In this document: in pieces, positions 12,818 to 33,293 of the stretch
Position numbering within the stretch: the stretch's first letter is position 1
Layout: each line of letters starts with the position of its first letter
NCBI GenBank assembly: GCA_018702715.1
Contig: JABIYQ010000438.1
Coordinates: 1-33,293, forward strand
Direction of reading: 5' to 3'
Length of the DNA: 33,293 nt
Source: Desulfobacula sp.
GTDB taxonomy: Bacteria; Desulfobacterota; Desulfobacteria; Desulfobacterales; Desulfobacteraceae
Translations under genes and position numbers: made by a program
The notes under the pieces: model-generated
Told to the model about the DNA's origin: nothing
The model's database searches: none
Seen by the model: the letters and a program-made list of their open reading frames with translations, nothing else

Positions 12818-12834
12818 GCGGGAATATACGTTGT

Positions 12835-12990: not shown

Positions 12991-13008
12991 TCCTGTATAT
13001 CCCTGTTT

Positions 13009-14480: not shown

Positions 14481-14502
14481 TTATTATTCCTTTTTTTCCG
14501 CC

Positions 14503-14630
14503 CGTCCGCACCCGGACCCTGATGCCCCGACCCTTCCGCTGCTCCGCAATGCTCCAGGGTACGAGTCATCCTGACCGGCTGCTTCTGCTGTCCTCATGCT
14601 CTGATATTCTGCTGCCGTGCTCCTGCTGCT
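14503..14630 (-). repeat. DGR target 3' element, copy B
   Basis: Ungapped 128-nt copy of the element at 10866-10993, directly after the TAG stop of target 2 and ending 22 nt before the HRDC gene start. It keeps the ACCCTG/CAGGGT inverted repeat around the conserved core. It is GC-rich against an AT-rich background. Confidence 0.75.
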
Positions 14631-16535: not shown

Positions 16536-16703
16536 TTTATTCACTCCCCAATTTGGCAATGGTATTCAATATCTTTTCTTATAAAAATTTTATCGAATAA
16601 AAGTCAAATTTTTCCAAACTTTATTCAAAAAAGAGACATGGAATTCGCAGGCCATTCCGGAACACGCCCGGAATTATAGGAACAGGATTTTTCAAGAATT
16701 TGG

Positions 16704-17294: not shown

Positions 17295-17350
17295 GTCACA
17301 CCCCTTGTCTTTTTTCAGTTTGTAAAAGTTTTCCTAAAGCCTCAAATGGT

Positions 17351-17478
17351 CCCCGGCATCCGGACCATGATACCCCGACCCTTCCGCTGCTCCGCAACGC
17401 TCCAGGGTGCGGGTCATCCTGTCCGGCTGCCTCTGCTGTCCTCATGCTCTGCCATTCTACTGACCTGTTTCTACTGCT
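17351..17478 (-). repeat. DGR target 3' element, copy C
   Basis: Third ungapped 128-nt copy, directly after the TAG stop of the FGE part of target 3. The core is kept, but the left arm reads ACCATG, so the ACCCTG/CAGGGT pairing is broken here. It ends about 56 nt before the OmpA-family gene start. Confidence 0.72.
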
Positions 17479-18414
17479 CTATTGCCGGACCCGGGAAAGA
17501 CAGAGGCGGAACCCCATGTTACTGTTTCGGTGATCAGCAGAGTTCCTGCCCCGGATCGCTGCACGCACGTTCCCGGGGTTGAAGTTCCAGCTGCCACCAC
17601 GGAGCACGCGGGAAATTCCACCGGATGTCACCACAGGATTGTTGCGATCATGTTTTGAATAGGCATTCTTATCATACACATCTTCACACCATTCCCAGAC
17701 ATTACCACTCATGTCATATATGCCAAGTCCGTTGGGAGCTTTTATTCCGACCCGATGGGTTTTATTTCCGCTGTTGGAGTTATACCATGCAACACGGTCT
17801 ATATCATTTCCACCTGCATATATCTGATCCCTGCCCCCGCTTCTGGCGGCATATTCCCACTGGGCTTCTGTGGGCAAAAAAAAGCTGTTGCCGGATAGTT
17901 GTTTTAGTTTGGAAATATATTGTTGGGCATCGTTCCAGGATACTTGTTCAACCGGAAAATCTTCTCCTGATTGAAACTTTGAAGGATTGGAACCCATGAT
18001 TTTTTTCCACTGCCCCTGGGTCACCTCATATTTCCCCATCCAGAACCCGTCCAGACAGACCCCATGAACCGGCTTTTCATTAGCATAACTATCGCTTGAA
18101 TTGCTCCCCATCTGATAACACCCCCCTGGCACCCGCACAAATTCCATACCGGTTACAGGGTCTTTCCATGTTCCATCTCTTTGGAGTGGATTTCTTAACA
18201 GCAACATGCAGTCACCTTCTTCAACACCATCTGCCCAGCCGGGAGGGCATTTCGCAATCAACACCTGCCATGCTGATTTTTTAAGGCTTTTGCCATATTC
18301 TGAAGAAATTATTTCTTTATATTTATTAATTTCCGTCTCAAGAGCGATGATTATCTTTTCTTCTCTTTCTATTTTTAGCTGTGCAATTTCTGCTTCTCTT
18401 TTTATTTGTTCAGC
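17479..18414 (-). CDS. DGR target 3, FGE part reached by -1 frameshift from the caspase gene
   Basis: 311 codons in the -1 frame relative to the caspase gene at 18402-19559. The frame is open from the A7G run onward. The first 50 residues continue the coiled coil (AEQIKREAEIAQLKIEREE), then come PPGWADGVEEGDC and an FGE/C-type-lectin domain (DPVTGMEFVRVPGGC, EVTQGQWKKIM, LPTEAQWEYAARSGG, GNVWEWCEDVYDK) and the DGR variable region (GFRLCLSRVRQ tail). A GTG at 18264 could start a separate 261-residue protein, but it has no clear ribosome site or signal peptide and would begin inside the conserved linker. The likeliest products are a 693-residue fusion, by programmed slippage or after correction of an indel, or a broken gene. 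Confidence 0.8.
   Translation of the reverse strand, partial: AEQIKREAEIAQLKIEREEKIIIALETEINKYKEIISSEYGKSLKKSAWQVLIAKCPPGWADGVEEGDCMLLLRNPLQRDGTWKDPVTGMEFVRVPGGCYQMGSNSSDSYANEKPVHGVCLDGFWMGKYEVTQGQWKKIMGSNPSKFQSGEDFPVEQVSWNDAQQYISKLKQLSGNSFFLPTEAQWEYAARSGGRDQIYAGGNDIDRVAWYNSNSGNKTHRVGIKAPNGLGIYDMSGNVWEWCEDVYDKNAYSKHDRNNPVVTSGGISRVLRGGSWNFNPGNVRAAIRGRNSADHRNSNMGFRLCLSRVRQ
17485..17616 (-). repeat. DGR variable region VR3
   Basis: Aligns to TR 12858-12989 with offset 4627. The core 17515-17616 has 11 differences, all at template adenines. One further A-site change lies in the IMH (CGA to CGG, silent), the only VR with this. It has the VR-type GTC codon. This is the least diverged VR, with several AAC codons still as in the template. 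Confidence 0.94.
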
Positions 18415-19559
18415 TTTTTTTGTTTTCTTAATAGTTCAAGTCTTTTAGCCTGTTCCTCTTTTTGTTTTACCATGGCAAGCATGGTATCAAGGCTGTCGTC
18501 TGTTTTGACTTCAGAGGAGCCAAGACGTTTTTTCATGGCACTTATTTTTTTATCAAGTTCGGATAGTTCTTGCTCCCGGAGTGCAATTTCCTTTGCTTCT
18601 TTTTTTTGGGCTGTGTCTGCTTGTCTTTCCATTTTTTTGAGTCGTTCATATTCACTTTGTTTTTGAGCTTCTAACCGGGATAAATTGTCCAAACGGGCGT
18701 TTTGTTTTAAAAAGAAAACAAACTCTCCGCCCTGCTGGCCGCCTGTGTTGTGTAAAGAACCAAACTGGGGAAATTGTTCAGCATTTTCAGCTACGCCTGC
18801 TTTAATATCTGTAAAAAATTGTGAGGGAACTAAAAATGGTGACTGATTGTTTTCAAGAGCTTTTACTAAAAAGTGTGTGAATACGCTGTTATTAGCAAAG
18901 CCTGAGTCAGTAACCGGTTCAAGTCCGCCTGAAGTTATTGCCTGCCGGGAAGTCAATTTATAGGACCGCCGGATCACTTCATCTGTGACTTCCGGCAATT
19001 TACCCCTGTGACCACGAAAGAAATCGCCTGAAAAACATGAATCAGAGACAAGAAGAATATGTTTGGCCTTAATGGCATCTGATTTGAGGTAATCCTTGAT
19101 ATAATTATTAGAGATCCAGGCAGATACATCTTTTGTGCCGCTTTCCACTGGTATCCAGCTGCCTGATTTGGTTATGGGATCAAGATACCCATGGCCTGCA
19201 TAGAATAAAAAAAGGGAATCGTCTTTTTTTAAATTTTGAGCCAGAAACCGAAGCTTACCAATAATGTTTGCCCGGGTTGCCTCTTCGTCGTATAGTTCAA
19301 TCAAATGTTCATTATCAAAATGATACCTGGAAAGAAGCGCTTTTTTGACTGATCTGGCATCATTGGCTGCAGTTTTCAGCCGGGGCCATTCAATATATGT
19401 GTTAATCCCGATAACAAAAAGCCATTGGTCTCCTGTAACCTTTTTGCCTGAAGGGGATATTGGGGTCACTGAAATCCCGAAGGCTGTGCTTAAAAAAAAA
19501 CCAGAGAATGAAAATAGTATGACTGCAGTGATCAAGAAAAATGATTTCAGACTTTTCAT
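18402..19559 (-). CDS. DGR target 3, caspase-like part with C-terminal coiled coil
   Basis: 385 residues in the zero frame. The Sec signal ends near STAFG. Residues about 43-285 are a caspase-like domain: WLFVIGINTY, His123 in YAGHGYL, Cys175 in SDSCFSGDF, then QAITSGG. Residues about 290-385 are a strongly charged coiled coil (RLKKMERQADTAQKKEAKE, LSELDKKISAMKKRLG). The frame ends at TAA 18404-18402, twelve bases after an A7G run; the coiled coil carries on in the -1 frame into the FGE/VR part. It differs from the caspase domains of targets 1 and 2 (SDSC rather than LDAC, longer tail), so the same variable display domain has been joined to another caspase lineage. Possibly made alone as a short product. 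Confidence 0.9.
   Translation of the reverse strand: MKSLKSFFLITAVILFSFSGFFLSTAFGISVTPISPSGKKVTGDQWLFVIGINTYIEWPRLKTAANDARSVKKALLSRYHFDNEHLIELYDEEATRANIIGKLRFLAQNLKKDDSLFLFYAGHGYLDPITKSGSWIPVESGTKDVSAWISNNYIKDYLKSDAIKAKHILLVSDSCFSGDFFRGHRGKLPEVTDEVIRRSYKLTSRQAITSGGLEPVTDSGFANNSVFTHFLVKALENNQSPFLVPSQFFTDIKAGVAENAEQFPQFGSLHNTGGQQGGEFVFFLKQNARLDNLSRLEAQKQSEYERLKKMERQADTAQKKEAKEIALREQELSELDKKISAMKKRLGSSEVKTDDSLDTMLAMVKQKEEQAKRLELLRKQKKLNK
18414..18420 (-). other. A AAA AAG slippery heptamer (candidate -1 frameshift site)
   Basis: In coding sense the caspase gene reads CAA AAA AAG CTG AAC AAA TAA. The heptamer A AAA AAG is the one used by E. coli dnaX for -1 frameshifting. Slipping back one base gives GCT GAA CAA and joins the caspase frame to the FGE/VR frame. 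The -1 frame has a TGA about 20 nt upstream, so the shift must occur in this short overlap. I see no strong stimulatory hairpin (only a loose GCTG/CAGC pairing) and no well-placed Shine-Dalgarno. A run of eight A would make one continuous frame, so an indel or read error is the alternative. Confidence 0.55.
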
Positions 19560-19887: not shown

Positions 19888-21138
19888 TTACAATGAATAC
19901 TCATTATAGGTTGTCACCCGCAAGAGAATATGGGTTTGCCTGGTTTGAGGGCCGCCGATAGTTGTTACACCCCCATCAATTGATTCAATTATGGTGTTGA
20001 AAATTTCTTTTCTTTTTTGGGAGATGATTATTTTCAGCCTGGAGATGGTATCATTTACCTTTAAGGCTATCAGTTCGGCATTTATTTTTGATGAAATGTT
20101 TAGTTTCGCTTCATCGCCGGCCGTAAGACGAAACACTTTGCTGTCTAAAAGCTTAAAACTGGAATAATTTAACGTTTTTTGAAGTTCGCTGTAGGCGATT
20201 GCCAGTTCCGGATCAATGTAATTTGTTTTATTATCAGCTTTTATCACCTGAACTTTTACCCAGACAATCGGCCCTGAGGATCTTTTTGAACTATTTTGAA
20301 TCATTGTATATTCAGTGATTCTTTTAGCAAATGATAACTTTTTCAGTTCAGGAAACTCATTCAGGATCGGGGCAAGTTTGTTTTTAAGTGTGCTAATGTA
20401 TCCTTTCTTAATCATTGAAATTACGGCAAAATCTATTCTGGATTCGTCAATTTTTATATCATTCTGTGTTTTACTTGTGCAAATCATAGACAACAATTGC
20501 ACAGCTGTTTCAAAATCCCTGCCATTCTCCGACATGATAAACGCTTTTTGCAGATCCTCAATAAAAATTTGGATAGAAGTATTCTTCTTTAATCTTTCAA
20601 GCCATGGAAGGGCAGCTTTATATTTTCCGTTATTTAAGAGTGCAAGTGTATAAAAATGGAGAGCATATCCTGAAAGTTTATGTGATTCAAGTTTTTCAAA
20701 AACATCATGGTATAATTTTTCACTGGTTTCCTCTTGCCAGGATATCCCGGTGGATGATGATAAAAGATAGTATATCAGTGCAAGAGAGGGAATAAATTTA
20801 TCAGTTTTATTTGGATGGCTCAGTATAGATTGGAAATTTTTTTCATTTTCCCACAGAGTGTCAAACACTGTCCTGAGGTCTTCTTTTTTTGAAACCAGGG
20901 CAATTTTTTGAAGTATTTTGATTTCAAGAGCATTGCCTGGGGTGAGGTTTTTGGTGCGGATCATTTTAAGTTCTTTGCGAACTGTTTCAGATCGGATATT
21001 AAAATTAAATTTTTCCTGGACCCTGTGCTGGAAACTTATTTCAGGATATGGCCCTGCATTTGCTGATATCCCTGCACAACCGAACAATGACATTAATGCG
21101 GTCAGGAAAATAATGAATTGAAATATTATTGCAACCAT
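19888..21138 (-). CDS. Lipoprotein with helical repeats and C-terminal domain shared with 30346-30804
   Basis: 416 residues; AAGGAG 9 nt before ATG 21138. The signal ends in SLFGC (Cys21). Residues about 60-290 are helical, with TPR-like stretches (YALHFYTLALLNNGKYKAALPWLERLKK). The last roughly 125 residues form a separate domain: VKVQVIKADNKTNYIDPELA, LNYSSFKLLDSKVFRLTAGDEAKLNISSK and GGVTTIGGPQTRQTHILLRV. This matches nearly the whole mature part of the small protein encoded at 30346-30804, next to an anti-sigma factor. Location: periplasmic face of a membrane. Function unknown; the shared domain suggests both respond to or bind the same partner. Confidence 0.82.
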   Translation of the reverse strand: MVAIIFQFIIFLTALMSLFGCAGISANAGPYPEISFQHRVQEKFNFNIRSETVRKELKMIRTKNLTPGNALEIKILQKIALVSKKEDLRTVFDTLWENEKNFQSILSHPNKTDKFIPSLALIYYLLSSSTGISWQEETSEKLYHDVFEKLESHKLSGYALHFYTLALLNNGKYKAALPWLERLKKNTSIQIFIEDLQKAFIMSENGRDFETAVQLLSMICTSKTQNDIKIDESRIDFAVISMIKKGYISTLKNKLAPILNEFPELKKLSFAKRITEYTMIQNSSKRSSGPIVWVKVQVIKADNKTNYIDPELAIAYSELQKTLNYSSFKLLDSKVFRLTAGDEAKLNISSKINAELIALKVNDTISRLKIIISQKRKEIFNTIIESIDGGVTTIGGPQTRQTHILLRVTTYNEYSL

Positions 21139-21162: not shown

Positions 21163-21990
21163 TTATTGATCACAGAATAAAAAACCGCTTTTTTCTGCTA
21201 CAAGATTGCAGATGTTTTCCCTGGTTAAAGATCCATCAACCCGGGACAAAATCTGATATTGAAACCGTTCATGATCGGCTAACAAGGCTTTATTACGAAA
21301 AATATCAAACTCGATTTCAGGCAGTTTTGTTGAAATAAAATTTAAGAATTGAGTTGCATCAAGAAAATTATCAAAACTTGTCAATTCAAAGTGCTTTATG
21401 GTATCTACCTGTTCAACAAAAGTCTGCGAATCTGTTGTCTTTTCATGGGGTTTTGTTTTGGCCATAATTTTTTTAAGATGCCTGTAAATGTAATGGACAT
21501 ATTCATTGCAATCTTTTCTGAGTGTAAAGGTTTTTTTGTCAACACCTCCTGGTCCGCAGTAGTATGCTGCCAGAGCAAGGTACGGGTCTTCCAGTTTTGT
21601 ATATAGATCTGCAAGGTAATGAACTCCAGCATCTATATTTTTTTTAGGAACATATAATTCTTGTTTGCTGATTCCATAGATTGATGCTGTTGACGGCATT
21701 ACCTGCATGAGTCCGATGGCACCCTTTGAACTTATAGCATTGGAATCAAAAAAGGACTCTCCCCTGACCACTGCCAGAATATAGGGTAATGAAAGGTTAT
21801 ACTTTCTTGATGCATCTGCTAAAAGATCCTGATAGGGATATCCTTTAACTTCAACAGGCGTTTTAAATATTGATATCAGATCACTTTTTATAACGGGATC
21901 AGGCATGATCGCTGCATGAACCGCCTGGCATATAAATAAGCTCAGGATCAAACCCGACAATAATAATATTGAACTAATCTGTTTCATCAT
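21163..21990 (-). CDS. Soluble lytic transglycosylase (SLT domain)
   Basis: 275 residues; GGAGG precedes two adjacent ATG codons. Signal peptide residues 1 to about 27, ending AVHAAI. Residues about 52-150 are an SLT/lysozyme-like domain: YNLSLPYILAVVRGESFFD with catalytic Glu78, ISSKGAIGLMQVMPSTA, and LALAAYYCGPGGVDK (the usual AYNAGPG variant). It cleaves the glycan strands of peptidoglycan in the periplasm. The C-terminal 100 residues (DTIKHFELTSFDNFLDATQF onward) are not part of the family. In this cluster it could open the wall for assembly of an envelope-spanning complex formed by its neighbours (inference). Confidence 0.93.
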   Translation of the reverse strand: MMKQISSILLLSGLILSLFICQAVHAAIMPDPVIKSDLISIFKTPVEVKGYPYQDLLADASRKYNLSLPYILAVVRGESFFDSNAISSKGAIGLMQVMPSTASIYGISKQELYVPKKNIDAGVHYLADLYTKLEDPYLALAAYYCGPGGVDKKTFTLRKDCNEYVHYIYRHLKKIMAKTKPHEKTTDSQTFVEQVDTIKHFELTSFDNFLDATQFLNFISTKLPEIEFDIFRNKALLADHERFQYQILSRVDGSLTRENICNLVAEKSGFLFCDQ

Positions 21991-22027
21991 ATCCCTCCAA
22001 ATTTTTATTTATTTATTGGTTTTTGTT

Positions 22028-22693
22028 TTATTTAAATTCATGAAATTTTATCTGACCACTGGATGACACTGAAAGAATGCCATTCTTTTTTTCCTGATTC
22101 AGTTCGGAAAGCATTGTTTCAACCTTTGAATCAATGCGGCTGTCGGAAAACAAAACCATCACCTGCAACCTATTAAATGATTTGACATCCGATATGGTTC
22201 GGCCCAATTCCCTGATAAAATATTCACGATCCGCTCCGTTTTTCAGTTCCCACATTTTCTTTGGAATATCTGTAGCGCTTTTAAATTCTAAAACATCCCC
22301 TGACAAATATCCTTCAAAAATGAGATCAAACCCTTTATTGACAGCCCGGCAATATATTTTTACCTTATTATTGTTAAGCATGGTAATTAAATCCTCCAGG
22401 CTCTGAAACTGGAAATGAAGCCCTTTTAAAGGTTCATTTACTAAAATCTGTGGTCTGTCTTCCTGAACCGATTCAGGCGCTGAGATATTTTCAGTAAGGG
22501 GCTCAATAATTGAGACCAAATCCTGGATTGTTTCAATTGTTTTTTGGGGATCATGGGTAAAAGGGATACTTTTTATCATTGCAAATATAATCCAGAAGAT
22601 AATTCCTATAATTGCGACAAATCTCATAACATCGACTTCCAGTGACTGGTCATTGTTTAAATGATCTTCAAAAAGGAAATTAAACCGCTTCAT
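22028..22693 (-). CDS. Single-TM membrane protein, partner of the four-TM protein
   Basis: 221 residues; AGGGG about 8 nt before ATG 22693. The gene overlaps the end of the four-TM gene by 14 nt. A short cytoplasmic N-terminus with charged residues (FNFLFEDHLNNDQ) is followed by one TM helix, residues about 22-43 (VMRFVAIIGIIFWIIFAMI), and a periplasmic region of about 175 residues. This topology is like ExbD/TolR/MotB partners of ExbB/TolQ/MotA channels, but I do not see the conserved TM aspartate in the expected spot (an Asp, D22, sits at its start), so the assignment is only suggestive. Confidence 0.6.
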   Translation of the reverse strand: MKRFNFLFEDHLNNDQSLEVDVMRFVAIIGIIFWIIFAMIKSIPFTHDPQKTIETIQDLVSIIEPLTENISAPESVQEDRPQILVNEPLKGLHFQFQSLEDLITMLNNNKVKIYCRAVNKGFDLIFEGYLSGDVLEFKSATDIPKKMWELKNGADREYFIRELGRTISDVKSFNRLQVMVLFSDSRIDSKVETMLSELNQEKKNGILSVSSSGQIKFHEFK

Positions 22694-23243
22694 TTTGGGT
22701 CCCCTCTTCGAGCAGCATTTGATCCCATTTTCTGCCGATATAGATTATTTTAAATATCCTCAGCAGATATCCACAGGCACCACCAAATACAGTTGTGCTT
22801 AAGGCCAGCAGCAGGCCTCCATTGACAAGTTTATCAAGAAGGCCCAGGGCAGATACATTTGAACTTAAACCTTCAGGGTTCGTCATCCCGTCAAGGGCGT
22901 GCATCAACGCCGTCTCCATCCCTATAGCTGTCCAGATAATGCCTACACCAAAAAATGCTGAGATGATTACGTTCAATAATCTGTCAAGGAATGTCACTTC
23001 TGAAAGTTTTGCATCTGGAGCGCTGATTTTTATGCGCATTTTAAGAATGAATACCATATAAAGAATAAGAAGTATGGAAAACGGGATAATGGAAGACCGA
23101 AGGTGCCTGAAAAATAATGAACCCATATTGAACAGCACATCATATTCCGGAGATATTGTAACCCAATTTAAAGCGACCCCGAGCCCGAGAAGTATCAGAC
23201 TCCAGCAAAATGAAAGTGAGATTATAATAATAGAATATCTCAT
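22680..23243 (-). CDS. Four-TM protein, possibly MotA/TolQ/ExbB-like
   Basis: 187 residues; the start overlaps the preceding gene by 4 nt. Predicted TM segments near residues 5-27, 48-70, 87-107 and 133-160. The third and fourth have the glycine-rich pattern of the MotA/TolQ/ExbB channel pair: FFGVGIIWTAIGME and LLDKLVNGGLLLALSTTVFGGACGYLL, the latter resembling the L-x-NG-x-LLALxTTxxG block of that family. These proteins use ion flow to drive periplasmic partners. It is shorter than usual for the family. With its single-TM neighbours it could form a small energised complex; call made by pattern only. Confidence 0.55.
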   Translation of the reverse strand: MRYSIIIISLSFCWSLILLGLGVALNWVTISPEYDVLFNMGSLFFRHLRSSIIPFSILLILYMVFILKMRIKISAPDAKLSEVTFLDRLLNVIISAFFGVGIIWTAIGMETALMHALDGMTNPEGLSSNVSALGLLDKLVNGGLLLALSTTVFGGACGYLLRIFKIIYIGRKWDQMLLEEGTQNEAV

Positions 23244-23833
23244 AATATTTTTCTTTCTTTGATGGTTTGGGACATTTTCCCTAGTAAGAGTTTAAACTGG
23301 CTGTCTGTTTTGATCAGTTCATTCTCATTAAGAGTAAGGCCCATGGCAATAAACCCTGCGGTTTTAAGTTTCTTTTCCATCAAATATTCAGTTTCAAAAA
23401 ACTTCACGCTTTTAAAATTGTTCAAAGGTAACTGCAGGGTATGAAAGTTTTTCCAAAAACATTTTCGAATCATTAAATCCACGGTTTTTTCATCAGCATT
23501 GTGCTCTTGGAGTAAAAACCGGGTGAACAATGCTTCTATGTCTTCGCTTTCATTAACTTTAAGATTTTCAAAAAACTGAAGCGCCAGCATATTAAGAGGA
23601 CTGGTACCTGTCAAAGCGTTGTCTGCTTCATGGTTTGTATTAACATCCGTATTTTCATCAACAATATTGCTATCCTTAACAATATTGCTATCCTTTCCCG
23701 GGATCGGTAATGTAATGGTCAGTCCGGTGTTATTTTCGGATTTTCCAACACTTACGATCCCGGATACTATTAATGTTCCAAGGACGAACACGCTGATAAC
23801 TATTGAAAGTATGATGGCAATGATAAATTTCAT
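23240..23833 (-). CDS. Single-TM protein, unknown function
   Basis: 197 residues. The ATG at 23833 is preferred to a GTG three codons earlier, which would sit on the purine-rich GGGTGAGGG. One TM helix near residues 3-27 (FIIAIILSIVISVFVLGTLIV), then a region containing a duplicated KDSNIV, KDSNIV motif and an Asn/Asp-rich spacer, then a helical domain of about 120 residues (FFENLKVNESEDIEALFTRF). The TM may be an uncleaved signal anchor. Overlaps the four-TM gene downstream by 4 nt, so the two are translated together. Confidence 0.65.
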   Translation of the reverse strand: MKFIIAIILSIVISVFVLGTLIVSGIVSVGKSENNTGLTITLPIPGKDSNIVKDSNIVDENTDVNTNHEADNALTGTSPLNMLALQFFENLKVNESEDIEALFTRFLLQEHNADEKTVDLMIRKCFWKNFHTLQLPLNNFKSVKFFETEYLMEKKLKTAGFIAMGLTLNENELIKTDSQFKLLLGKMSQTIKERKIL

Positions 23834-23851
23834 ATCCCTCACCCGATTGCA

Positions 23852-24430
23852 TTAGTTTGTGCCGTTGCAGGCTGCCCAAATTGTGTTGTATACATACATG
23901 GCGTTCAAAAAATGAGTTTCAGGGCTGCCCTGTCGGCAAGCTTCAAAACCCAATTGTTTCAGCATGAATTCTTTTTCAAGGTTACGCTTAATCGAGGATA
24001 GCTGATAACAGCATTGATTTACTTTTTCAGTGGACGGCAGGCTGACAAACTGGTTTGAAAAATAACAATTCCACCTGTTTTTAACCAGATCCGGTGGAAC
24101 TTTGCCTGTTTCCCGGAGGGGGGTTACAAAAGAATCCCAAATCAGGTCTGCATTTTGAGGAGAAGCGCTGTTTTTGCACTGTGTAACAAGTTTTTCAAAT
24201 ACGTTTTCAAAAAATTGTTGTGAATAGGGATTATTATTGATGACTTCCAGAGCCTGCCTTGAGGCTGTTGCTGTTTTAAATGAATCAATTTGATCAATCC
24301 GGGTCAGGGAAGCTGCTGGAGTTTCCATTTTCATGATCTTCACCTGGGGTTCTGTTGTAACACAACCCGTTGTAAAGACGGTCAAAATTGCTAATACGAC
24401 AATGAACCTGCTGTATTTTTTAAAATTCAT
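23852..24430 (-). CDS. Cysteine-rich lipoprotein, unknown function
   Basis: 192 residues; GGAGG upstream of ATG 24430. The signal ends in FTTGC (Cys23). The mature part carries five or more cysteines (VTQCKN, RWNCYF, VNQCCYQ, FEACRQG, WAACNG), suggesting disulphides in the periplasm. Mostly helical. No recognised family. It lies tightly upstream of the single-TM gene (19 nt) and downstream of another exported protein with paired cysteines. Confidence 0.72.
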   Translation of the reverse strand: MNFKKYSRFIVVLAILTVFTTGCVTTEPQVKIMKMETPAASLTRIDQIDSFKTATASRQALEVINNNPYSQQFFENVFEKLVTQCKNSASPQNADLIWDSFVTPLRETGKVPPDLVKNRWNCYFSNQFVSLPSTEKVNQCCYQLSSIKRNLEKEFMLKQLGFEACRQGSPETHFLNAMYVYNTIWAACNGTN

Positions 24431-24463
24431 AATATCCTCCGTTAATTATTGTTTTTTAAGTCA

Positions 24464-25351
24464 TTAAGATCTCGGTGCAAAACCGCCAGACACTTTCTTT
24501 TTGCCATTATTTTTATCTTCAGTCCCTGTTGTTTTTTTATAGTATTCCAGAACTTTTAAATTTGGTTTTGATGAAAGTTTTGTTCCGGTATACTGGATAC
24601 CCAGCACCTGGGGCATTGCACTGACAGCCTTTGTTGCATTGAAAATAATCTGGCCATATTCACGCTGTGATTCCAGGATGAATTTTGCTTTGGCAAACAT
24701 TTTTGAAAGAAATCGTGCTTTTTTAGCTTTTTTGGACATGGAAATCTGAATATTCCCTGCTCTGACAATTTCCGGGGCTTCTTTTCCAAAATCCGGGATG
24801 AGTTTTTCCAATACAACAAACATTTCATCTGTCGGATCAGGAAAATCATCCAATTCCAGGTTAAATGGACTGTCATCATTTGATTGCCCGCCAACATCAA
24901 GCCTGGGTGCATCTGAAGTACCATTCATTGTTTCTGAATAAAGCTCAGAAGGACTATGTTTAAATGCCCGGGATGAAACAATCTGGGCTGCTGACTGTTC
25001 CCCCTGTTCGTACCTTGCTGCAACCCCGGGAAGATAACCCGCCAGCTCTGAGTAGAGTTTGATGCCGGTCTCTCTCATCTGAGATGCCATTTCTTTACAT
25101 GCGTCACTGGGTTTTTGGGGATTAAAATCCGCCCCCCCACAGGCTGCGTTCCAGGTTTCATACTGCACATCAAACTTTTTCATGAGCCGGGCAATCTCGC
25201 TTGCTTTTTCAGACGTCGCCAGTTGTCCAAGTTCAGACCTTGTATTATTAATGATTCTCTGGACTGCAACACCCTGTGAGGCATATAGATTTGAAAAAAA
25301 ACCAGTTATTAATACCAGTGTGATGATAAATACGCTTTTAGTCGGTTTCAT
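24464..25351 (-). CDS. Exported helical protein, unknown function
   Basis: 295 residues; GGGAGG upstream of ATG 25351. Signal peptide ends near NLYASQG. The mature part is helical, with one likely disulphide (AACGGADF and DACKEMA), an acidic middle (LELDDFPDPTDEMF) and a basic C-terminal tail (KNNGKKKVSGGFAPRS). First gene of the minus-strand envelope cluster, so its upstream region (25352-25599) should hold the cluster promoter. I do not recognise a family. Confidence 0.72.
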   Translation of the reverse strand: MKPTKSVFIITLVLITGFFSNLYASQGVAVQRIINNTRSELGQLATSEKASEIARLMKKFDVQYETWNAACGGADFNPQKPSDACKEMASQMRETGIKLYSELAGYLPGVAARYEQGEQSAAQIVSSRAFKHSPSELYSETMNGTSDAPRLDVGGQSNDDSPFNLELDDFPDPTDEMFVVLEKLIPDFGKEAPEIVRAGNIQISMSKKAKKARFLSKMFAKAKFILESQREYGQIIFNATKAVSAMPQVLGIQYTGTKLSSKPNLKVLEYYKKTTGTEDKNNGKKKVSGGFAPRS

Positions 25352-25599
25352 GATTCCTCCCTTTTTTTAGTTAAAAATCCAAATCAAGAATTTCGCTCTT
25401 TAAATATTTAGACGAAGGATTAGAATAATTGTTCAAAAGAATTTACTTTTCTTAAATTTATGATAAGAAAACTATACAATCCAAAAATGAACAAATTTTA
25501 AGATATCTCGTCTTTTTAGATATCAGCAGTAAAAAAAATGAGTACAGATGCTTTTTTGTAAAATATTTAATCACATCAAATTTTAAATGGAGATTGATT
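25352..25599. promoter_or_regulatory. Divergent control region between minus- and plus-strand clusters
   Basis: AT-rich, 248 bp, between the starts of the envelope cluster (minus) and the FlgO/DUF4384-like gene (plus). GATATCT (25502-25508) and AGATATC (25518-25524) form a 7-bp inverted repeat with a 9-nt spacer that could be an operator. I cannot define convincing -35/-10 boxes for either side. Confidence 0.35.
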
Positions 25600-27087
25600 A
25601 TGTTCAGAAAATTGCTTGTTATACTCGGCTTAATTTCATTCTTGCTTTTGACAGGATGTGTAGCTGCAACAGAAAAAGCAGTAAAAGCACCTTCTGATAT
25701 AAAAACCATGAGCCTTCACACTGCAACTCAGCTTTTGGCTGAAAAATTGAATGTATCCCTTAAAGGTAAACAGCTGGGCAGATTTGCTGTAGCAGACCTA
25801 ATAGGTCCGGGTAGCGGAATCACAGGGCTTGGCGAACAGATAGCAGACGACTTGAGCGTACAACTTTTTCAATCAAATAATTTTAGTGAGTATGTAGAAA
25901 GAAAACAATTCAAGCAGCTGCTTTCAACCATCATTTCAGAAAAAGACGTACCCTACTTTGACCAGAGCACGGTTTCGACGTATGGAAAATCCATGGGACT
26001 TCAGGATATGCTAATCGGAACAATTCGAGATCTTAGATCCTACTATTATGTCAAGGCAAAAATTGTTAACATTGAAACAACAAAAATCCTGGCCATGGGG
26101 GATGTTAACATATCAAAGACCGCCACAGCCATAACACTTGTGGAAAAAAAGCAGACATCAACTTTGACTGTCAGTGTAAGCCCGGCAATACAGGGGACTG
26201 TCATGGCTGATGGGAGGCACCATCCATTAAAGAATGGGGCTGCTGTTATAAAAGGAGTGCCGTATGGTAATTGTTCCATCGTTATTCAACCCTCTTCCGG
26301 GTATCAAGCTATCAGAAAAAATATTTTAATCAAATCCCCCATGGAAACTTTTGCATTCAGTCTTAAAGAAAAAAAATATGATATCTCCTTTACGATTGTC
26401 CCTCCTGATGCAACCCTTGTGATTGACGGGAAAAAAATTATCCTTAATGAACATGGTTTTGCAAAAATCGATAATATCACAGCAGGGAATCATTCCCTCC
26501 TCATCAATTCTGATAAAAAAGGCTATAAAGGTATTTCTCAGATATTTAATCCGGCAATAAATGAAATCTTTCAGTTTAATCTTCTGACAACAGATCCAAT
26601 CTACAATTTCAATGATACCCTTTTTCAAAAAGTACAACAAATGAAAGACAAACAGGATTTCAATGTTAAGCTCTGGACAAATAAGAAAGTGTTTAAACCC
26701 GGAGATACAATTTCATTTTTTTTCAACTCTGAAAAAGACTGCTATTTAAATATCGTTGATATTGGTACCAGTGGGAATATCACCCTGCTTTTTCCAAATA
26801 AATATCATCAAAACTCAAGAATTGATGCAGGAAAAACCTATAAAATCCCGGATGAAAGCTCTGACATGTTTGCATTCAGGGTCGATCCACCCGCTGGAAT
26901 AGATCGTGTCTATGCTATTGCCAGTACCAGGCCCCTGAATATTTTTGATACAAATTTTAGAGATGTTGAATATAAAACAATAACCCGTGGACAAACACGA
27001 GATATCACAACTGTGGCGGCTGGTCATGCCATGAGCAATGTAAAATTAACTGCGGCATCCACCTGTATTATTAATGTGATCGAATAA
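25600..27087 (+). CDS. Lipoprotein: FlgO-like, PEGA-like and DUF4384-like domains
   Basis: 495 residues. ATG 25600 has GGAG 7 nt upstream; a TTG two codons earlier is less likely. The signal ends in LLTGC (Cys20). Residues about 35-160 resemble the FlgO fold (LGRFAVADLIGPGSGITGLGEQIADDLSVQL, then LQDMLIGTIRDL and ILAMGDVNI). Residues about 165-325 hold two PEGA-like beta modules (TLTVSVSPAIQGTVMADG; YDISFTIVPPDATLVIDGKK). Residues about 350-455 match DUF4384: VKLWTNKKVFKPGDTISFFF, CYLNIVDIGTSGNITLLFPN and GIDRVYAIAST. DUF4384 often accompanies caspase-like genes. A surface-exposed or periplasmic adhesive or sensor role is likely but not shown. Confidence 0.85.
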   Translation: MFRKLLVILGLISFLLLTGCVAATEKAVKAPSDIKTMSLHTATQLLAEKLNVSLKGKQLGRFAVADLIGPGSGITGLGEQIADDLSVQLFQSNNFSEYVERKQFKQLLSTIISEKDVPYFDQSTVSTYGKSMGLQDMLIGTIRDLRSYYYVKAKIVNIETTKILAMGDVNISKTATAITLVEKKQTSTLTVSVSPAIQGTVMADGRHHPLKNGAAVIKGVPYGNCSIVIQPSSGYQAIRKNILIKSPMETFAFSLKEKKYDISFTIVPPDATLVIDGKKIILNEHGFAKIDNITAGNHSLLINSDKKGYKGISQIFNPAINEIFQFNLLTTDPIYNFNDTLFQKVQQMKDKQDFNVKLWTNKKVFKPGDTISFFFNSEKDCYLNIVDIGTSGNITLLFPNKYHQNSRIDAGKTYKIPDESSDMFAFRVDPPAGIDRVYAIASTRPLNIFDTNFRDVEYKTITRGQTRDITTVAAGHAMSNVKLTAASTCIINVIE

Positions 27088-27125
27088 AAACCTGTAGCAT
27101 TATAGAAAAATTTAAGGAAAAACCA

Positions 27126-28280
27126 ATGAAAAGAATAAGAGACATGTTTCATAAAATCATGATTCTATGCATGGCATTTGTAACAATTTTTGTTTCAGCC
27201 TCCTATGCCGACACTGAAATTGTTACGATTGCAGAAGGGGTTGCATTGATACAAGGAGATAATATAGTTGGCGCTAAAGAAAATGCAAAAAATGATGCAC
27301 TCCGCCAGGCACTCGAACAGGGCATTGGCATGCTCATGGATGCCGAAACGATCCTTAAGAATGATGACCTCATGGAAAAAATTTATACACATTCTACAGG
27401 CTATATAAAAAATTATACCATTATAAAAGAAGGGGAAGATAAATCCGGCATATACAGAGTTACAATACGTGCCGTCACAAAAACTGAGACGCTAAGAAAT
27501 ACACTTACCCACTTAGGCCTGATCCACCAAATGGTTGATTACCCTAGAATAATGATCCTTCCTTTTCCTGACAAGGGCATGATCTCTTTGGCAGAGGCTG
27601 CTGAAGCCATACTGGTACAGCAGTTTACAGATAGACATTTTGAGTTAGTGGACCCTGCAAAATCAAAACAACTCCACAATGAAGCCAAAGACCTTCTTAA
27701 AGTTGATACAATAAACAATATTGCAGCAAAAATTGGTCTTCAACATCAAGCTGAAATCGTTATTTTATACTCGGTTGATACTGGAGCATCAGAGTTTGAT
27801 GGAATGATGGAAACTGCAACTGCCACCATGACAACCAGAGCAATAGTTACTACTACTGCCCAGATTCTTACAGCAGATAATAAAACTTTGTCAGGGTTGG
27901 GGAAAACCCCTGAGCTTGCCTTTACAAAAGCAGCAAACAGTGCAGCACAAAGCTGTGCAGAAAAACTAATCCCCTCAATTGTGTCCTGGTGGGACAATTA
28001 CACTGCAAATGGCTTGCCCTACATAATAACGCTTAAAACACCTCCAAAGGCAGACCGATTGATCATCTTATTCCAGCAAAACATGGAATCCATTCCAGGG
28101 GTCGTGTCACTATCAGAACGAAGCTCAGGAGGTGGTATAACAGAAATGATGGTAAAATATAAAGGCAAAAGCACAGATTTGAAAAGAGCTGTCCTGTCAA
28201 TAATGTTTAAGCATGCAAGCTTCAAAGATCTTTATACTGTAATAATTAAAGGAAGGTTTATGGTGTTTTCAATCAAATAA
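27126..28280 (+). CDS. Exported FlgT-like protein
   Basis: 384 residues; AAGGA 7 nt before ATG 27126. Signal peptide residues 1-28 (ASYA, then DTE). Residues about 33-125 look like the N-terminal domain of FlgT: AEGVALIQGDNIVGAKENAKNDALRQALEQG and YIKNYTIIKEGEDKSGIYRVTIRAVT. The middle (YPRIMILPFPDKG, then VDPAKSKQ, AEIVILYSVD) resembles FlgT middle/TolB-N-like folds. Known FlgT is a Vibrio flagellar H-ring part; no flagellar genes are visible here, so this is more likely a related envelope protein. Follows the FlgO-like gene by 38 bp, probably cotranscribed. Confidence 0.8.
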   Translation: MKRIRDMFHKIMILCMAFVTIFVSASYADTEIVTIAEGVALIQGDNIVGAKENAKNDALRQALEQGIGMLMDAETILKNDDLMEKIYTHSTGYIKNYTIIKEGEDKSGIYRVTIRAVTKTETLRNTLTHLGLIHQMVDYPRIMILPFPDKGMISLAEAAEAILVQQFTDRHFELVDPAKSKQLHNEAKDLLKVDTINNIAAKIGLQHQAEIVILYSVDTGASEFDGMMETATATMTTRAIVTTTAQILTADNKTLSGLGKTPELAFTKAANSAAQSCAEKLIPSIVSWWDNYTANGLPYIITLKTPPKADRLIILFQQNMESIPGVVSLSERSSGGGITEMMVKYKGKSTDLKRAVLSIMFKHASFKDLYTVIIKGRFMVFSIK

Positions 28281-28704: not shown

Positions 28705-30210
28705 ATGAAAATTTCTTTGATAACAAATCTTATAGCGGGAATCGTCTTTTTTTTAACCCTTGCCGGACCGGCAGCTACCCAACAGAACAGTGATGGAGTG
28801 GCTGTGATCATTGGCAACAAAAACTACCAGAATCAGATCCCACAGGTTGACTTTGCCCATCGTGATGCAGCAGCAATGAAACGATTTGTAATTGATGAAC
28901 TTGGATACAAGCAAGGTAATATCATTTATTTGCTGGATGCTTCTGAGGGACAAATGCGAGGAGTTTTCGGGTCAAAGGACAATTATAAGGGAAAACTCAA
29001 CCAATATATTCGCCCTGGGAAATCCGATGTTTTTATTTTTTATTCCGGCCACGGGGTACCCGGGCTTAAAGACCGAAGAAGTTATCTTCTTCCCTGTGAT
29101 GCCAGTCCTGACACGGTTGAACTCAATGGTTATCCATTACAGCAACTTTATGACAATCTTGGAAAAATGGAAGCCAAATCTACTCTTGTTTGCCTGGATG
29201 CATGTTTTTCTGGTGACTCTCCAAATGGGATTCTGACTCAATCTGCATCTTCTATCTCAGTCATCCCATACGAACCCAAAAATATTGATCACCTCAATAT
29301 CATTACAGCAGCCAGCGGGGGTCAGCTGGCTAGCTGGGACTCCAAATCCAGACACGGCCTTTTTACAGAAATTTTATTACAAGGTCTTTATGGGAAAGCT
29401 GATGAAAAAGAATTTGGTGGCAATGGAGACAACGAGATAACACTTCTGGAAATGAAGAAATTGCTGGATGACGAAATGACATATTTAGCACGTCGCCATT
29501 ACAACCGGGAACAAGTGGCTACAATCAAGGGAAATAATAACTTTATCCTTGCTAGTCATGGGAACGAACCCATAGTACGTCCTAAAATTACCCTGGATTC
29601 AAAACCATTAAAACAAATTAAGACACATACATTTCAAAATGAACCGCTTGAAGAAAAAACAGACCACATGATTTTTAGGATAAAGCCAGTTAAATACAAG
29701 GGATCTGAGATCCCTGGGGCTGTCGGTATTATAGGCGCGCCTTTGGGCAATATGCCGGATGCTATTGTGGAAAATTGGCCTCCGCAAAAAGGTGATATCA
29801 CGGTTACAACCATTATCACAAAAAACAAAATAGAACGTGAAGACAATCCAGAATTAGCAGGCGCCCAAATGGCTACTGCCTTATTCGGCAAAGCCATAAG
29901 CTCTTTTACAAAAGACATCCCCAAATACATATATCATTATGAAGTGGATGTTCTTATTACTGCAAAGAATACCCAATCCCGAGAAGTCAAAACAGCAAAC
30001 GGATCTGCCTACCTGAAATCTCAGAATGATAATGAATCCGGACAGATCTTGATTGAAGCGTTAACAGAAGGGGCAAACAACTTGTGCCTTATACTCATGG
30101 GAGGGGTTTCGCAACCCCATGAGAAAGCAAGCGTAAAAAGGAATAATGCACTGATGGCATTCAAAAAAAGCAAGAGTTCTCAAGATTTCAATCAGAACGA
30201 TACGCGCTGA
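28705..30210 (+). CDS. Exported caspase-like protein, not a DGR target
   Basis: 501 residues; AGGGAG 6 nt before ATG 28705. Signal peptide residues 1 to about 25 (GPAATQQ). Residues about 30-285 are a caspase-like domain: GVAVIIGNKNY, His116 in FYSGHG, Cys167 in LDACFSGD, then ITAASGGQLASWDSKSRHGLFTE. Residues about 310-500 form a beta-rich domain of unknown type (HMIFRIKPVKYKGSEIPGAV, YIYHYEVDVLITAKN). There is no FGE domain and no GFRL tail, so this copy is not diversified. Substrate unknown. Convergent with the sigma-factor cluster, and downstream of the FlgO- and FlgT-like genes after a 424-bp gap. Confidence 0.9.
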   Translation: MKISLITNLIAGIVFFLTLAGPAATQQNSDGVAVIIGNKNYQNQIPQVDFAHRDAAAMKRFVIDELGYKQGNIIYLLDASEGQMRGVFGSKDNYKGKLNQYIRPGKSDVFIFYSGHGVPGLKDRRSYLLPCDASPDTVELNGYPLQQLYDNLGKMEAKSTLVCLDACFSGDSPNGILTQSASSISVIPYEPKNIDHLNIITAASGGQLASWDSKSRHGLFTEILLQGLYGKADEKEFGGNGDNEITLLEMKKLLDDEMTYLARRHYNREQVATIKGNNNFILASHGNEPIVRPKITLDSKPLKQIKTHTFQNEPLEEKTDHMIFRIKPVKYKGSEIPGAVGIIGAPLGNMPDAIVENWPPQKGDITVTTIITKNKIEREDNPELAGAQMATALFGKAISSFTKDIPKYIYHYEVDVLITAKNTQSREVKTANGSAYLKSQNDNESGQILIEALTEGANNLCLILMGGVSQPHEKASVKRNNALMAFKKSKSSQDFNQNDTR

Positions 30211-30345: not shown

Positions 30346-30804
30346 CTAATCAAATTCAGCGCCAACACGTAGAAGCAAAACACCATCTTCATAAAGAGGG
30401 CCGCCTATTAAAACAAATCCTTTGTCAACAAGAAGTAAAATAGTATGAAAGACTTTTTTCTTTTTTTCCATAATTTCAACAAGCAGTCTTCCCTGGTTTT
30501 CCTCAAACCCTTTAAAAGTAAGCTTAAGAATTCTTTTGGATGAAAGTAGAATTTCTGAAGTTTGGCCGAAAGTTAGTTTCTGTTCACTTTTCTTGGCAAG
30601 CTTAAAACCGGTATAATTAAGGACCGGGGCAATTTCATTAGCTAGGTCTTTTAGTTGAGGGTCAATTATGTTTGATTTTTTTGTGGCTTTGATTATTTCA
30701 ACTTTAACGTTCATTGATGAAAAGGCAAGGACATTTTCAGGACACACCTGAAATATTATCAAAAGCATAAATATGCATAAAATAGAATTTTTTTTCATTG
30801 TCAT
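30346..30804 (-). CDS. Small exported protein, paralogue of the 19888-21138 C-terminal domain
   Basis: 152 residues; start ATG 30804 overlaps the anti-sigma stop (TAATG), with AGGAGG upstream. Signal peptide residues 1 to about 29 (ENVLAFS). The mature protein aligns by eye with the C-terminal domain of the lipoprotein at 19888-21138: VKVEIIKATKKSNIIDPQL, LNYTGFKLAKKSEQKLTFGQTSEILLSSK, FHTILLLVDKGFVLIGGPLYEDGVLLLRV. Shared landmarks are the IDPxL, LNYxxFKL and IGGP motifs. Cotranslation with an ECF sigma/anti-sigma pair suggests it is the periplasmic signal protein or a stress-response output. Exact role unknown. Confidence 0.83.
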   Translation of the reverse strand: MTMKKNSILCIFMLLIIFQVCPENVLAFSSMNVKVEIIKATKKSNIIDPQLKDLANEIAPVLNYTGFKLAKKSEQKLTFGQTSEILLSSKRILKLTFKGFEENQGRLLVEIMEKKKKVFHTILLLVDKGFVLIGGPLYEDGVLLLRVGAEFD

Positions 30805-31289
30805 TATCCAGCCTCCTTTTCATTGTCAGGAAAAAACATGATCAGAGGGATTTTGCTTTGTGCGGTTTTAAGCACCATGGTTGAGCCACTTGTACTGGAT
30901 ACTTCCTCAACGCTGCTGATCATCATTTGTTTTGTTCCTGTTTGAATTGGTAAGATTGTAACTACAAATATCGCAATTGCTGCGGTACAAAGGGCAGGTA
31001 CCCAGACTATCGGCTTGAAAAATTTATTTTTTATTCTCTCCCAATATGTAGGCCCCCAATCCATCTTTGAATCAAAATTTCTCCAGGCCTGATCGACGTC
31101 CAACGAAGACTCATCCTCTTCAAATGCTTCCTTCATCATTTCGTTTGTTACTCGCAGTAGCTCAAGTTTTTGTCTGCAATCAGTACATTTGTCTAAATGT
31201 TTTTTCAAATCTATGGAATGATTTTCGTCAATCTCATTATCGATAAACACATCAAATAAGGATTCATATTTTTCACAATTTGTACTCAT
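30804..31289 (-). CDS. Anti-sigma factor with zinc-binding (ZAS) domain and one TM helix
   Basis: 161 residues; the ATG overlaps the sigma gene stop (ATGA) and has AAGGAG upstream. Cys5 and H31-x3-C35-x2-C38 (HLDKCTDC) are the zinc ligands of the ZAS fold that clamps ECF sigma factors. TM helix residues about 94-115, then a short periplasmic tail of about 45 residues. Such factors hold the sigma inactive at the membrane until an envelope signal or redox change releases it. The tail is too small for a large sensor domain, so sensing may use the small exported protein downstream. Confidence 0.93.
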   Translation of the reverse strand: MSTNCEKYESLFDVFIDNEIDENHSIDLKKHLDKCTDCRQKLELLRVTNEMMKEAFEEDESSLDVDQAWRNFDSKMDWGPTYWERIKNKFFKPIVWVPALCTAAIAIFVVTILPIQTGTKQMMISSVEEVSSTSGSTMVLKTAQSKIPLIMFFPDNEKEAG

Positions 31290-31936
31290 TTTTGTATCTC
31301 CTTTTTGTCCTGATAATAAGATTGCACGGTTGTAATCACTTTTTTTCGTGCATTGCTTATCCTTGATTGCACTGTACCAAATGGTATATTCATTTTTTCT
31401 GAAATTTCTTTATATGTCAGCCCCGAGAAGAATAATTCTATCACTTCTCTATGTGTATCATTTAAACCTGATATTACCTTTTTTAAAATCACTTTTCCCT
31501 CGTCTGAACAAATTTGGTGTAGAAAATCTTTGGTATCTTCGATCTGCAGTCTGGGTAGTTGGCCACAGCCATTTTTTTGTTCTTCATCATTCATGTCATC
31601 CAGGAATATAGTCTTTTTTTTATTTCTATTATACTGTGACTTCCATTTGTCCTTAGTTAAATTACGTAATATTTGGAAGAGCCAGGTCTTAAAAGACGCA
31701 TCCCCTCTAAAGTCTTTTATGCCTTTTGAAGCCTTAAAAAATGTTTTATTAGTAATTTCCTTGGCATCTTCTTCATTCCTAAAATTCTTGTAAGCTTTTC
31801 CATAAATGAGTTTATAATATTTTTTATAAAGTTCCTCGTAATATTTTTTTTTACCCTTTTTGAAACCTGCAACAAGTTCTTCGTCAGAAACATCTTTCAA
31901 GTCAGAAAATCTTTTCAAATTAGGGAAAAAATTCAA
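31286..31936 (-). CDS. ECF-type RNA polymerase sigma factor
   Basis: 216 residues. The start is TTG 31936 with AAGGA 5 nt upstream; no better ATG lies in frame nearby. Sigma region 2 is at residues about 18-90: YEELYKKYYKLIYGKAYKNF, EEDAKEITNKTFFKASKGI, FKTWLFQILRNLTKDKWK. Region 4 is at residues about 150-205: LNDTHREVIELFFSGLTYKEISEKMNIPFGTVQSRISNARKK, a clear helix-turn-helix. Regions 1 and 3 are absent, as in extracytoplasmic-function sigmas. It probably controls its own operon and perhaps the envelope/caspase genes nearby (inference from the shared paralogous domain). Confidence 0.96.
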   Translation of the reverse strand: MNFFPNLKRFSDLKDVSDEELVAGFKKGKKKYYEELYKKYYKLIYGKAYKNFRNEEDAKEITNKTFFKASKGIKDFRGDASFKTWLFQILRNLTKDKWKSQYNRNKKKTIFLDDMNDEEQKNGCGQLPRLQIEDTKDFLHQICSDEGKVILKKVISGLNDTHREVIELFFSGLTYKEISEKMNIPFGTVQSRISNARKKVITTVQSYYQDKKEIQK

Positions 31937-32113
31937 AACATTCCTTTTCTATTTATTATTGACGAATATATTATGTTTTTGTTCAAATTTGTTTATATTA
32001 TCTGATTTTTATTATCCGCTTCTCATTACAAAACAGGTTGCCAAATATTTGTCAATAATTAGCAGTATTTTATAATTATTTTTATTATAAAAATTTGTAA
32101 ACTTGACGTTGAT

Positions 32114-32169: not shown

Positions 32170-33293
32170 ATGAATAAAATGCAAATTCAATTATTTTTTG
32201 TTATTTTCAGTCTTATTTTCACCCAGATTCCTGCCTATTGTCAAACAACTTATTCTCTTCATGAATTGGTAAAGCTTGCAAATATCCATGCTGAGAACAT
32301 TAAAATTGCTGAAGATGATTTATATATTGCAGAACAGGAAAAAGCCCGTGCATTGTCTGTCTTAATCCCCCGCGCCACAAGTTTCGGAAGCATGAGCGAG
32401 TATAAGAATGATGCTATGACAACTCCGGACACATTAACCTTGGGAGTTAAGCTGACACAATCATTTTCACTTAATGGAAAAGAGTTGATTGCCTTGGATG
32501 TTACAAAAAAAAGCATTGAAGGCAAAAGATTTTCCCTTGAAAGTATTCGTTCCGAGTATTTGTTACAGGTATCCCAAACCTATTATAATATTTTGAGCGC
32601 ACAAAGGTATCTTGAAATTGCCCAATCAGATGTCAAAAGACTTACCACACACAGGGATGCAGTCAAAGAAAAATTAAGTGTTGGTAATGTAACCAAGACA
32701 GATTTATTCAGGGCTGAAGCAGAACTATCCAGATCTTTGACGGAAAGGGTGAAAGCTGAAAATGGTGTACTGCAAAACAAGGCGGCTTTACGTAACCTTG
32801 TGGAGATTGAGGAAGATTATAATCTTGAAAAAGGAAATATTGAAAATATTGAACAATATCAATCCAGTCTGGAAGATATTCAAAGCTATGCTTTAAAAAA
32901 CAGAACTGAAATAAAGGAAGCAAAAAAGAATCTCGACATTGCAAGGAAAACGGTAAGGTTTGAAAAAAGTGATTATTGGCCAACCCTTTCTCTTGAAGCT
33001 GGTTACAAAGAAACCGATGTCAGTTATGAATTCAGACCCAGAGATGTGGAATATGACACTGAAGATCTATATTTCACCGGGGAGCTTGTTTTTACATTGT
33101 ATGACGGTGGGTTAAGAAGAGCCCAGATCAAACAGGCAATTGCAAACCAGAGAAAAGCTGCAAATGTATTAAGGCTTCAAAAAAAAGCAATCATCCTGGA
33201 TGCAAAAATTTCTTTTCTGGATCACGAAACTGCAAAAAGTACTTTATTAAATTTACAGGATGAACTGAAATCAGCCCAGGAAAATTTCAACGC
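32170..33293 (+). CDS. TolC-family outer-membrane efflux protein, 3' end beyond the right edge
   Basis: About 374 residues visible; open to the window edge. ATG 32170 with GAGG about 8 nt upstream. Signal peptide residues 1 to about 24 (IPAYCQTT). Typical outer-membrane-factor features are SLHELVKLANIHAENIKIAEDD at the N-terminus, long helices (YLLQVSQTYYNILSAQRYLEIAQSDVKRL), KLSVGNVTKTDLFRAEAELS (the GxxTxxDLxxAxxxL pattern at the first hairpin), YWPTLSLEAGYKE (beta strand), and the second repeat FTLYDGGLRRAQIKQA. It forms the outer-membrane channel of a type I secretion or RND efflux pump. Partner genes probably lie to the right. Confidence 0.95.
   Translation, partial: MNKMQIQLFFVIFSLIFTQIPAYCQTTYSLHELVKLANIHAENIKIAEDDLYIAEQEKARALSVLIPRATSFGSMSEYKNDAMTTPDTLTLGVKLTQSFSLNGKELIALDVTKKSIEGKRFSLESIRSEYLLQVSQTYYNILSAQRYLEIAQSDVKRLTTHRDAVKEKLSVGNVTKTDLFRAEAELSRSLTERVKAENGVLQNKAALRNLVEIEEDYNLEKGNIENIEQYQSSLEDIQSYALKNRTEIKEAKKNLDIARKTVRFEKSDYWPTLSLEAGYKETDVSYEFRPRDVEYDTEDLYFTGELVFTLYDGGLRRAQIKQAIANQRKAANVLRLQKKAIILDAKISFLDHETAKSTLLNLQDELKSAQENFN

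Follow-up and report, generated by a model that had tools for sequence, protein, structure and literature searches.

The Sigma Operon and Its Products

The window analyzed here is the entire 33,293-base contig JABIYQ010000438.1 (G000:C496) of a Desulfobacula sp. genome that is 82% complete. At 30346-31936 on the minus strand it carries three overlapping genes that encode an extracytoplasmic function (ECF) sigma factor, a zinc-finger anti-sigma factor, and a secreted third protein. The initial annotation described this region as an ECF sigma/anti-sigma operon, which the profile matches and the gene overlaps confirm, and proposed that the sigma system senses or regulates an envelope complex encoded in the same window, so that recognition at the surface could reach transcription. 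Control of the envelope genes is, on sequence evidence, very likely, whereas the genes of a diversity-generating retroelement (DGR) in the window have no clear sites for the sigma factor, and a path from the surface to transcription is conjectural.

The sigma factor (31286-31936, minus strand) is a protein of 216 residues with a TTG start. It matches the profiles Sigma70_r2 (E=1e-12), Sigma70_r4_2 (E=8.8e-12), and TIGR02937 (2.8e-25), and the profile search gave no match to region 3 (sigma3). The presence of sigma2 and sigma4 without sigma3, the co-encoded anti-sigma factor in the overlapping zf-HC2 gene 30804-31289, and, by sequence, an autoregulatory-type promoter with AAC (-35) and CGT (-10) 49 bp 5' of the sigma gene place it among the ECF (group IV) sigma factors. 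The AAC and CGT elements and autoregulation are hallmarks of this group (PMC8103513).

The anti-sigma factor (30804-31289, minus strand, 161 residues) scores 25.6 bits against PF13490 (cut-off 22.2) and has the motif HLDKCTDC and one transmembrane helix. H31, C35, and C38 are invariant in an alignment of 49 anti-sigma homologues, and the Hx3Cx2C motif lies inside an N-terminal helical domain according to the alignment and the helices of the model, as in class I (anti-sigma domain I, ASDI) proteins of the zinc type. In the AlphaFold2 model the transmembrane helix spans residues 93-112 and is followed by three beta strands at 126-153, the latter with moderate confidence. The short periplasmic tail past the membrane helix has a conserved pattern, approximately V-x-SV ... 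SVMI ... IIW, in the 49 homologues. The protein is predicted to bind and inhibit the sigma factor.

The third protein (30346-30804, minus strand, 152 residues) has an N-terminal signal-like segment and consists almost entirely of one domain (residues about 31-150). A TolC-family gene (32170-33291) is divergent from the operon and has no predicted sigma site; the contig end falls inside this gene.

A Domain Shared with an Envelope Lipoprotein

The domain of the third protein is also found at the C-terminus (19888-20280) of a lipoprotein encoded at 19888-21138 on the minus strand, which has an LFGC lipobox and a helical N-terminal part. Residues 33-147 of the third protein align with residues 294-408 of the lipoprotein over 115 gap-free residues with 38% identity and 58% positives (BLASTP, E=1e-20), and the landmarks IDPQL/IDPEL, LNYTGFKL/LNYSSFKL, and IGGP are present in both copies. 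By sequence comparison this match is far beyond chance, and the earlier statement that the third gene is nearly all the same domain as the lipoprotein C-terminus holds in full.

A whole-genome search of the host recovered just three copies of the domain, in the third gene, in the lipoprotein, and in another sigma cassette on contig C64. No sequence relative of the domain was found in Pfam, NCBIfam, or the PDB, and its assignment to a known family was therefore rejected; the third protein and its relatives have no Pfam or NCBIfam match and so fall outside the RseB/MucB sequence family. The AlphaFold2 model of the third protein is confident (predicted local distance difference score, pLDDT, 93; predicted template modelling score, pTM, 0.84) and has one strand, one helix, and then seven strands. 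A fold search against the PDB gave no meaningful similarity (best template modelling scores 0.31-0.38, root-mean-square deviation about 10 A), and a match to an uncharacterized marine-phage model (0.56-0.60, 9% identity) is only suggestive.

The domain occurs in 23 of 58 relatives and in 48 of 297 genomes of the phylum. Of the 25 matches among the relatives, 24 are third genes that follow a sigma gene and an anti-sigma gene, and the one exception is the lipoprotein. At the phylum level nearly all matches lie in sigma cassettes as well, save a few fragments at contig ends and the lipoprotein of a more distant genome, G086. Long open frames in the phylum search were considered as domain fusions and rejected, because outside G086 they proved to be frames that read through ordinary cassettes. 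Judged from these occurrences, the domain is a standard part of sigma cassettes in Desulfobacterota and its copies in lipoproteins are the exception.

This distribution weakens the argument of the initial annotation, in which the shared domain itself tied the operon to the envelope genes, because the host has another such cassette (C64) that adjoins unrelated genes. It had been noted that a domain widespread beside unrelated genes would count against the link. The domain does accompany sigma cassettes away from the cluster, and we therefore reject it as sufficient proof of linkage; the link itself is conserved independently, in gene order and in promoters.

Conservation of the Cassette and the Envelope Cluster

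The lipoprotein gene is the last of an envelope operon, the rest of which occupies 21163-25351 on the minus strand and encodes a conserved secreted protein of 295 residues (24464), a second lipoprotein (23852), 23240, a protein with several transmembrane helices (22680), a transmembrane protein (22028), and a lytic transglycosylase with an SLT domain (21163). Divergently, at 25594-28280 on the plus strand, lie genes for a FlgO-like/DUF4384 protein and a FlgT_N-like protein, which are predicted members of the same regulon. The gene order of the envelope operon is kept in G086, G528, G677, G510, G682, and, in diverged form, G611, and the cluster core is also present in G585 and G469. Homologues of the core gene 24464 are rare and turned up in 7 genomes among 390 of the order and in 2 among 395 of the phylum.

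The link between the cassette and the cluster is NEVERTHELESS real, since the same cassette clade lies by cluster genes in four other genomes from three other families (G086, G528, G510, and G585, in addition to the host, G000). In G086, which is related to the host only at the level of the phylum, the cassette is followed about 7-18 kb further on by homologues of the window genes 7318, 6350, 8941, 19888 (with the domain), 21163, 22028, 22680, 23240, 23852, and 24464, and the cluster also has caspase and formylglycine-generating enzyme (FGE) proteins. In G528 the cassette is about 4 kb from FlgT/FlgO-like genes and precedes the core by about 13 kb. The cassettes of G510 and G585 are beside OmpA homologues, in G510 also beside FlgO/FlgT-like genes, and the core is on other contigs.

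The G528 cassette (L140:1912-2725) has an intact sigma gene but has lost, by deletion, the anti-sigma gene and the first half of the domain gene; the predicted target promoters are retained. This natural loss may have left the regulon constitutively on. In G510 and G585 a membrane protein with a HELSH motif is convergent to the cassette (L153:4218-5018 and L154:1583-2440). Its matches to M50B/DUF3267 are weak and below the cut-off, and it could be a protease that acts on the anti-sigma factor. In G611 (L168:1720-6905) the diverged core includes a short lipoprotein without the domain and has no promoter match, and a sigma-like frame of 324 residues is about 3.4 kb away; no cassette domain was found in this genome.

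Phylogenetic trees agree with the gene order. The cluster-linked sigma factors form one clade (Shimodaira-Hasegawa-like approximate likelihood ratio test, SH-aLRT, 98) apart from 71 others that include the host C64 sigma factor. In the domain tree the cassette and lipoprotein domains of the cluster are on one side of a branch with support of 92.6, and those of the lipoproteins group together as a clade (SH-aLRT 97). The simplest history would be that the domain was duplicated inside the cluster and that the cluster then spread as a unit. No plasmid or viral carriage of the cluster was found.

Predicted Promoters

A search for a shared promoter motif, as had been suggested, gave a conserved promoter-like site. 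The consensus TGAAYA-N15-YGTCWA was fixed from the promoters of four cluster sigma genes (G000, G528, G510, and G585) and recurs before the envelope operon and, with one mismatch, before the FlgO-like gene. Ordinary cassettes have TGAA[TAC]-N15-19-CGTC upstream of the sigma gene in 35 of 73 cases, in keeping with the AAC/CGT promoters of ECF sigma factors that regulate themselves (PMC8103513). In the window the predicted autoregulatory site (TGAACA-N15-CGTCAA, 31959-31985, minus strand) lies 49 bp before the sigma gene, and an exact match (TGAACA-N15-CGTCTA, 25409-25435, minus strand) lies 84 bp upstream of the envelope operon's first gene. These are the two exact matches in the window, where 0.035 are expected. 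A site with one mismatch (TGAACA-N15-CGTCTT, 25488-25514, plus strand) lies 106 bp before the FlgO/DUF4384 gene, and another within one mismatch (TGAACA-N15-CGTCAT, 10616-10642, minus strand) lies 166 bp before the gene for a secreted DUF6844 protein (8941-10476, minus strand). In G086 and G528 the gene for the DUF6844 protein is part of the operon and comes after that of the lipoprotein, and in G510 and G585 it is fused to the N-terminal part of the lipoprotein; in the host it has moved out of the operon and still has its own predicted site. A fifth site within one mismatch has no obvious target.

Five sites within one mismatch against 1.64 expected is a count only modestly above chance, and the promoter argument therefore rests on the placement and the conservation of the sites. 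As a position weight matrix scan against mononucleotide shuffles was too noisy alone, exact patterns were used together with a test of the 250 bp upstream of each gene compared with 300 shuffles. Eight of nine homologues of the first gene of the operon have a site within one mismatch, each equalled by at most 2 of 300 shuffles; the homologue without a site is that of the diverged G611. All four homologues of the FlgO-like gene have such a site, and seven genomes have predicted sites before genes of the cluster itself. Across the 4.26 Mb of the host genome the close form TGAAYA-N15-CGTCWW occurs six times. The window contains four of these matches, each between genes and in the right orientation, and the two outside it are inside reading frames. 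With the autoregulatory site excluded, three of five matches fall in 0.78% of the genome (p about 5e-6, for a form picked after the window had been seen). G528 also has a second, degenerate partial envelope core (L169, C1 about 2076493-2080086) with an exact promoter match before its first gene.

The second, native cassette of the host (L131:4815-6912, G000:C64) has a small secreted-protein gene upstream. TGAACA-N15-GGTGTCA precedes this upstream gene and is conserved in Desulfobacula relatives, with a -10 element unlike the CGTC of the cluster, and the two switches therefore probably have separate targets.

Because of the conserved synteny, the cluster-specific sigma clade, and the ECF-type promoters conserved in several genomes, regulation of the envelope cluster by the sigma factor is well supported, and chance adjacency of cassette and cluster is rejected by the synteny and the promoters. 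It is very unlikely that the cassette regulates something else, such as the TolC-type gene at 32170, and is near the cluster by chance or as an island passenger. The divergent position of that gene and the patchy distribution of the cluster, in which passengers are expected, would fit such an arrangement; however, the TolC gene has no site (4 mismatches), the sites in seven genomes precede genes of the cluster, and five genomes have the cassette clade together with the cluster.

The DGR and Caspase Genes

The DGR at 10998-17617 is genuine and consists of a reverse transcriptase (RT), one template repeat (12856-12990), and three variable repeats (10998-11132, 14635-14769, and 17483-17617) whose differences fall at template adenines in 15 of 16, 18 of 19, and 12 of 13 cases, respectively. 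The variable repeats sit in three FGE-type proteins, two of which are fused to caspase domains. The sigma factor could also drive the RT, the template, and the variable proteins and thus switch on diversification, as their presence in the same window and a weak site with two mismatches 68 bp before the caspase/FGE gene 14631-16559 might suggest. This is unlikely, as no site precedes the RT, HRDC, or FGE 17479 genes or the caspase genes 10994 and 18402 (3-4 mismatches, a level that shuffles also reach), and G086 has cluster and cassette with no RT on its 28-kb contig. A direct link between the sigma factor and the DGR is not supported by the sequences.

Several caspase-like proteins are encoded in the window (3008-6244, 10994-12712, 14631-16559, 18402-19559, and 28705-30210), and some of them recur in the G086 and G528 clusters. 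Pfam Peptidase_C14 was checked for 18402 and 28705, the other calls being made by homology and sequence. Apart from caspase and RT hits, PADLOC reported no match in the cassette or the envelope proteins.

Proposed Mechanism

We propose that the operon encodes an ECF sigma switch that controls its own expression and is devoted to the envelope cluster of the window. In the resting state the membrane anti-sigma factor would hold the sigma factor, and a periplasmic signal would inactivate the anti-sigma factor and free it. The freed sigma factor would then transcribe its own operon (site 31985), the envelope operon 25351-19888 (site 25435), the FlgO/FlgT-like pair (site 25488), and the gene for the DUF6844 protein (site 10642).

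The third protein would be a periplasmic partner, most likely of the conserved beta-rich tail of the anti-sigma factor, in an RseB-like position. Binding of the tail is suggested because the conserved exposed tail adjoins a constant secreted partner, as with RseA and RseB, which are known to bind (PMC8103513). By this analogy, contact between the shared domain and the anti-sigma factor has about an even chance of being correct. The lipoprotein, which carries a paralogue of the third protein and would itself be produced under the sigma factor, might compete for the tail so that unassembled complex is reported back to the switch; such a role as mimic or reporter, again by analogy, is doubtful.

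It is also possible, although we do not favor it, that the sigma factor regulates the cluster while the domain makes no contact with the anti-sigma factor, and that both copies bind the same periplasmic ligand or scaffold, such as peptidoglycan or an envelope protein. The confident mostly-beta model with one helix and no close solved relative would suit a general binding domain, as would the retention of the cassette in G510 and G585, where the lipoprotein has no domain. Outside the lipoprotein of the cluster, however, the domain is almost only beside sigma and anti-sigma genes, which argues for a function tied to the anti-sigma factor.

The computation established homology, conservation of the cassette, synteny, cluster-specific clades, and conserved promoter-like sites. 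Several points weigh against the dedicated switch with feedback that we propose. No cassette domain gene was found in the incomplete assemblies of G677, G682, and G469, which have the cluster. G510 and G585 keep the cassette, yet their lipoprotein is without the domain, and the shared domain is therefore not essential to the circuit. The site of the G086 sigma gene is weak (2 mismatches), and the CGTCWW form was selected post hoc from the window, with only YGTCWA set by the sigma-gene promoters. Anti-sigma control, periplasmic contact, and feedback are steps that we infer, the latter two by analogy.

If the switch is correct, an uncharacterized and patchy envelope cluster by a DGR gains a regulator predicted to be its own, a set of defined promoters, and a regulon of few members. 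The analysis also defines a previously undescribed domain that ECF sigma cassettes throughout Desulfobacterota have as their constant third component and that offers a handle on what they sense. It would be an unusual way to build feedback if a regulator's domain had been copied to a structural component of the regulon it controls. In the most far-reaching version, a new periplasmic signalling domain from sigma cassettes would have been copied to a structural lipoprotein under the same sigma factor, and the machine would report its own assembly, or target contact through DGR-diversified lectin/caspase proteins, to transcription. We consider this rather unlikely; if true, an envelope or conflict system linked to a DGR would have a transcriptional arm that senses the system itself.

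Comparison with Known Systems

The operon resembles the RpoE-RseA-RseB system of E. coli envelope stress, in which an operon of an ECF sigma factor, a membrane anti-sigma factor, and a periplasmic protein controls envelope genes and itself. RseB is not known to have a counterpart fused to any structural lipoprotein in that regulon. In NlpE-CpxA and RcsF signalling, outer-membrane lipoproteins report assembly faults via two-component or phosphorelay systems, and the lipoprotein described here would likewise inform a regulator in the inner membrane of the condition of the envelope. NlpE and RcsF are not known to have a domain in common with a co-encoded regulator.

Caspase-like proteins and C-type-lectin proteins of the FGE type, some of them diversified by DGRs, also occur in conflict systems, according to passages of two studies (PMC10907252, PMC7159879). 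Passages of a third study describe EACC2-caspase loci with an ECF sigma factor and a tetratricopeptide repeat protein, and ECF sigma genes near caspase genes (PMC8195603). A sigma regulon of this cluster or the shared domain was not found in the passages of these open-licence papers (PMC10907252, PMC7159879, PMC8195603). The tetratricopeptide repeat protein of the EACC2-caspase loci is of the DUF1822 type, and neither the lipoprotein nor the 7318 protein has a DUF1822 match. Unlike in the loci covered by the passages of PMC8195603, the predicted targets of the sigma factor are here a periplasmic/envelope operon and not caspase genes. In architecture the operon is also like ECF sigma factors with class I zinc anti-sigma factors (ASDI, or zinc-binding anti-sigma, ZAS, proteins), which have sigma2 and sigma4 only, Hx3Cx2C, one transmembrane helix, and AAC/CGT autoregulation; the cassette described here differs from these in that a third gene, which codes for an undescribed domain, is constantly present, and the target complex has, in this clade, a copy of that domain.
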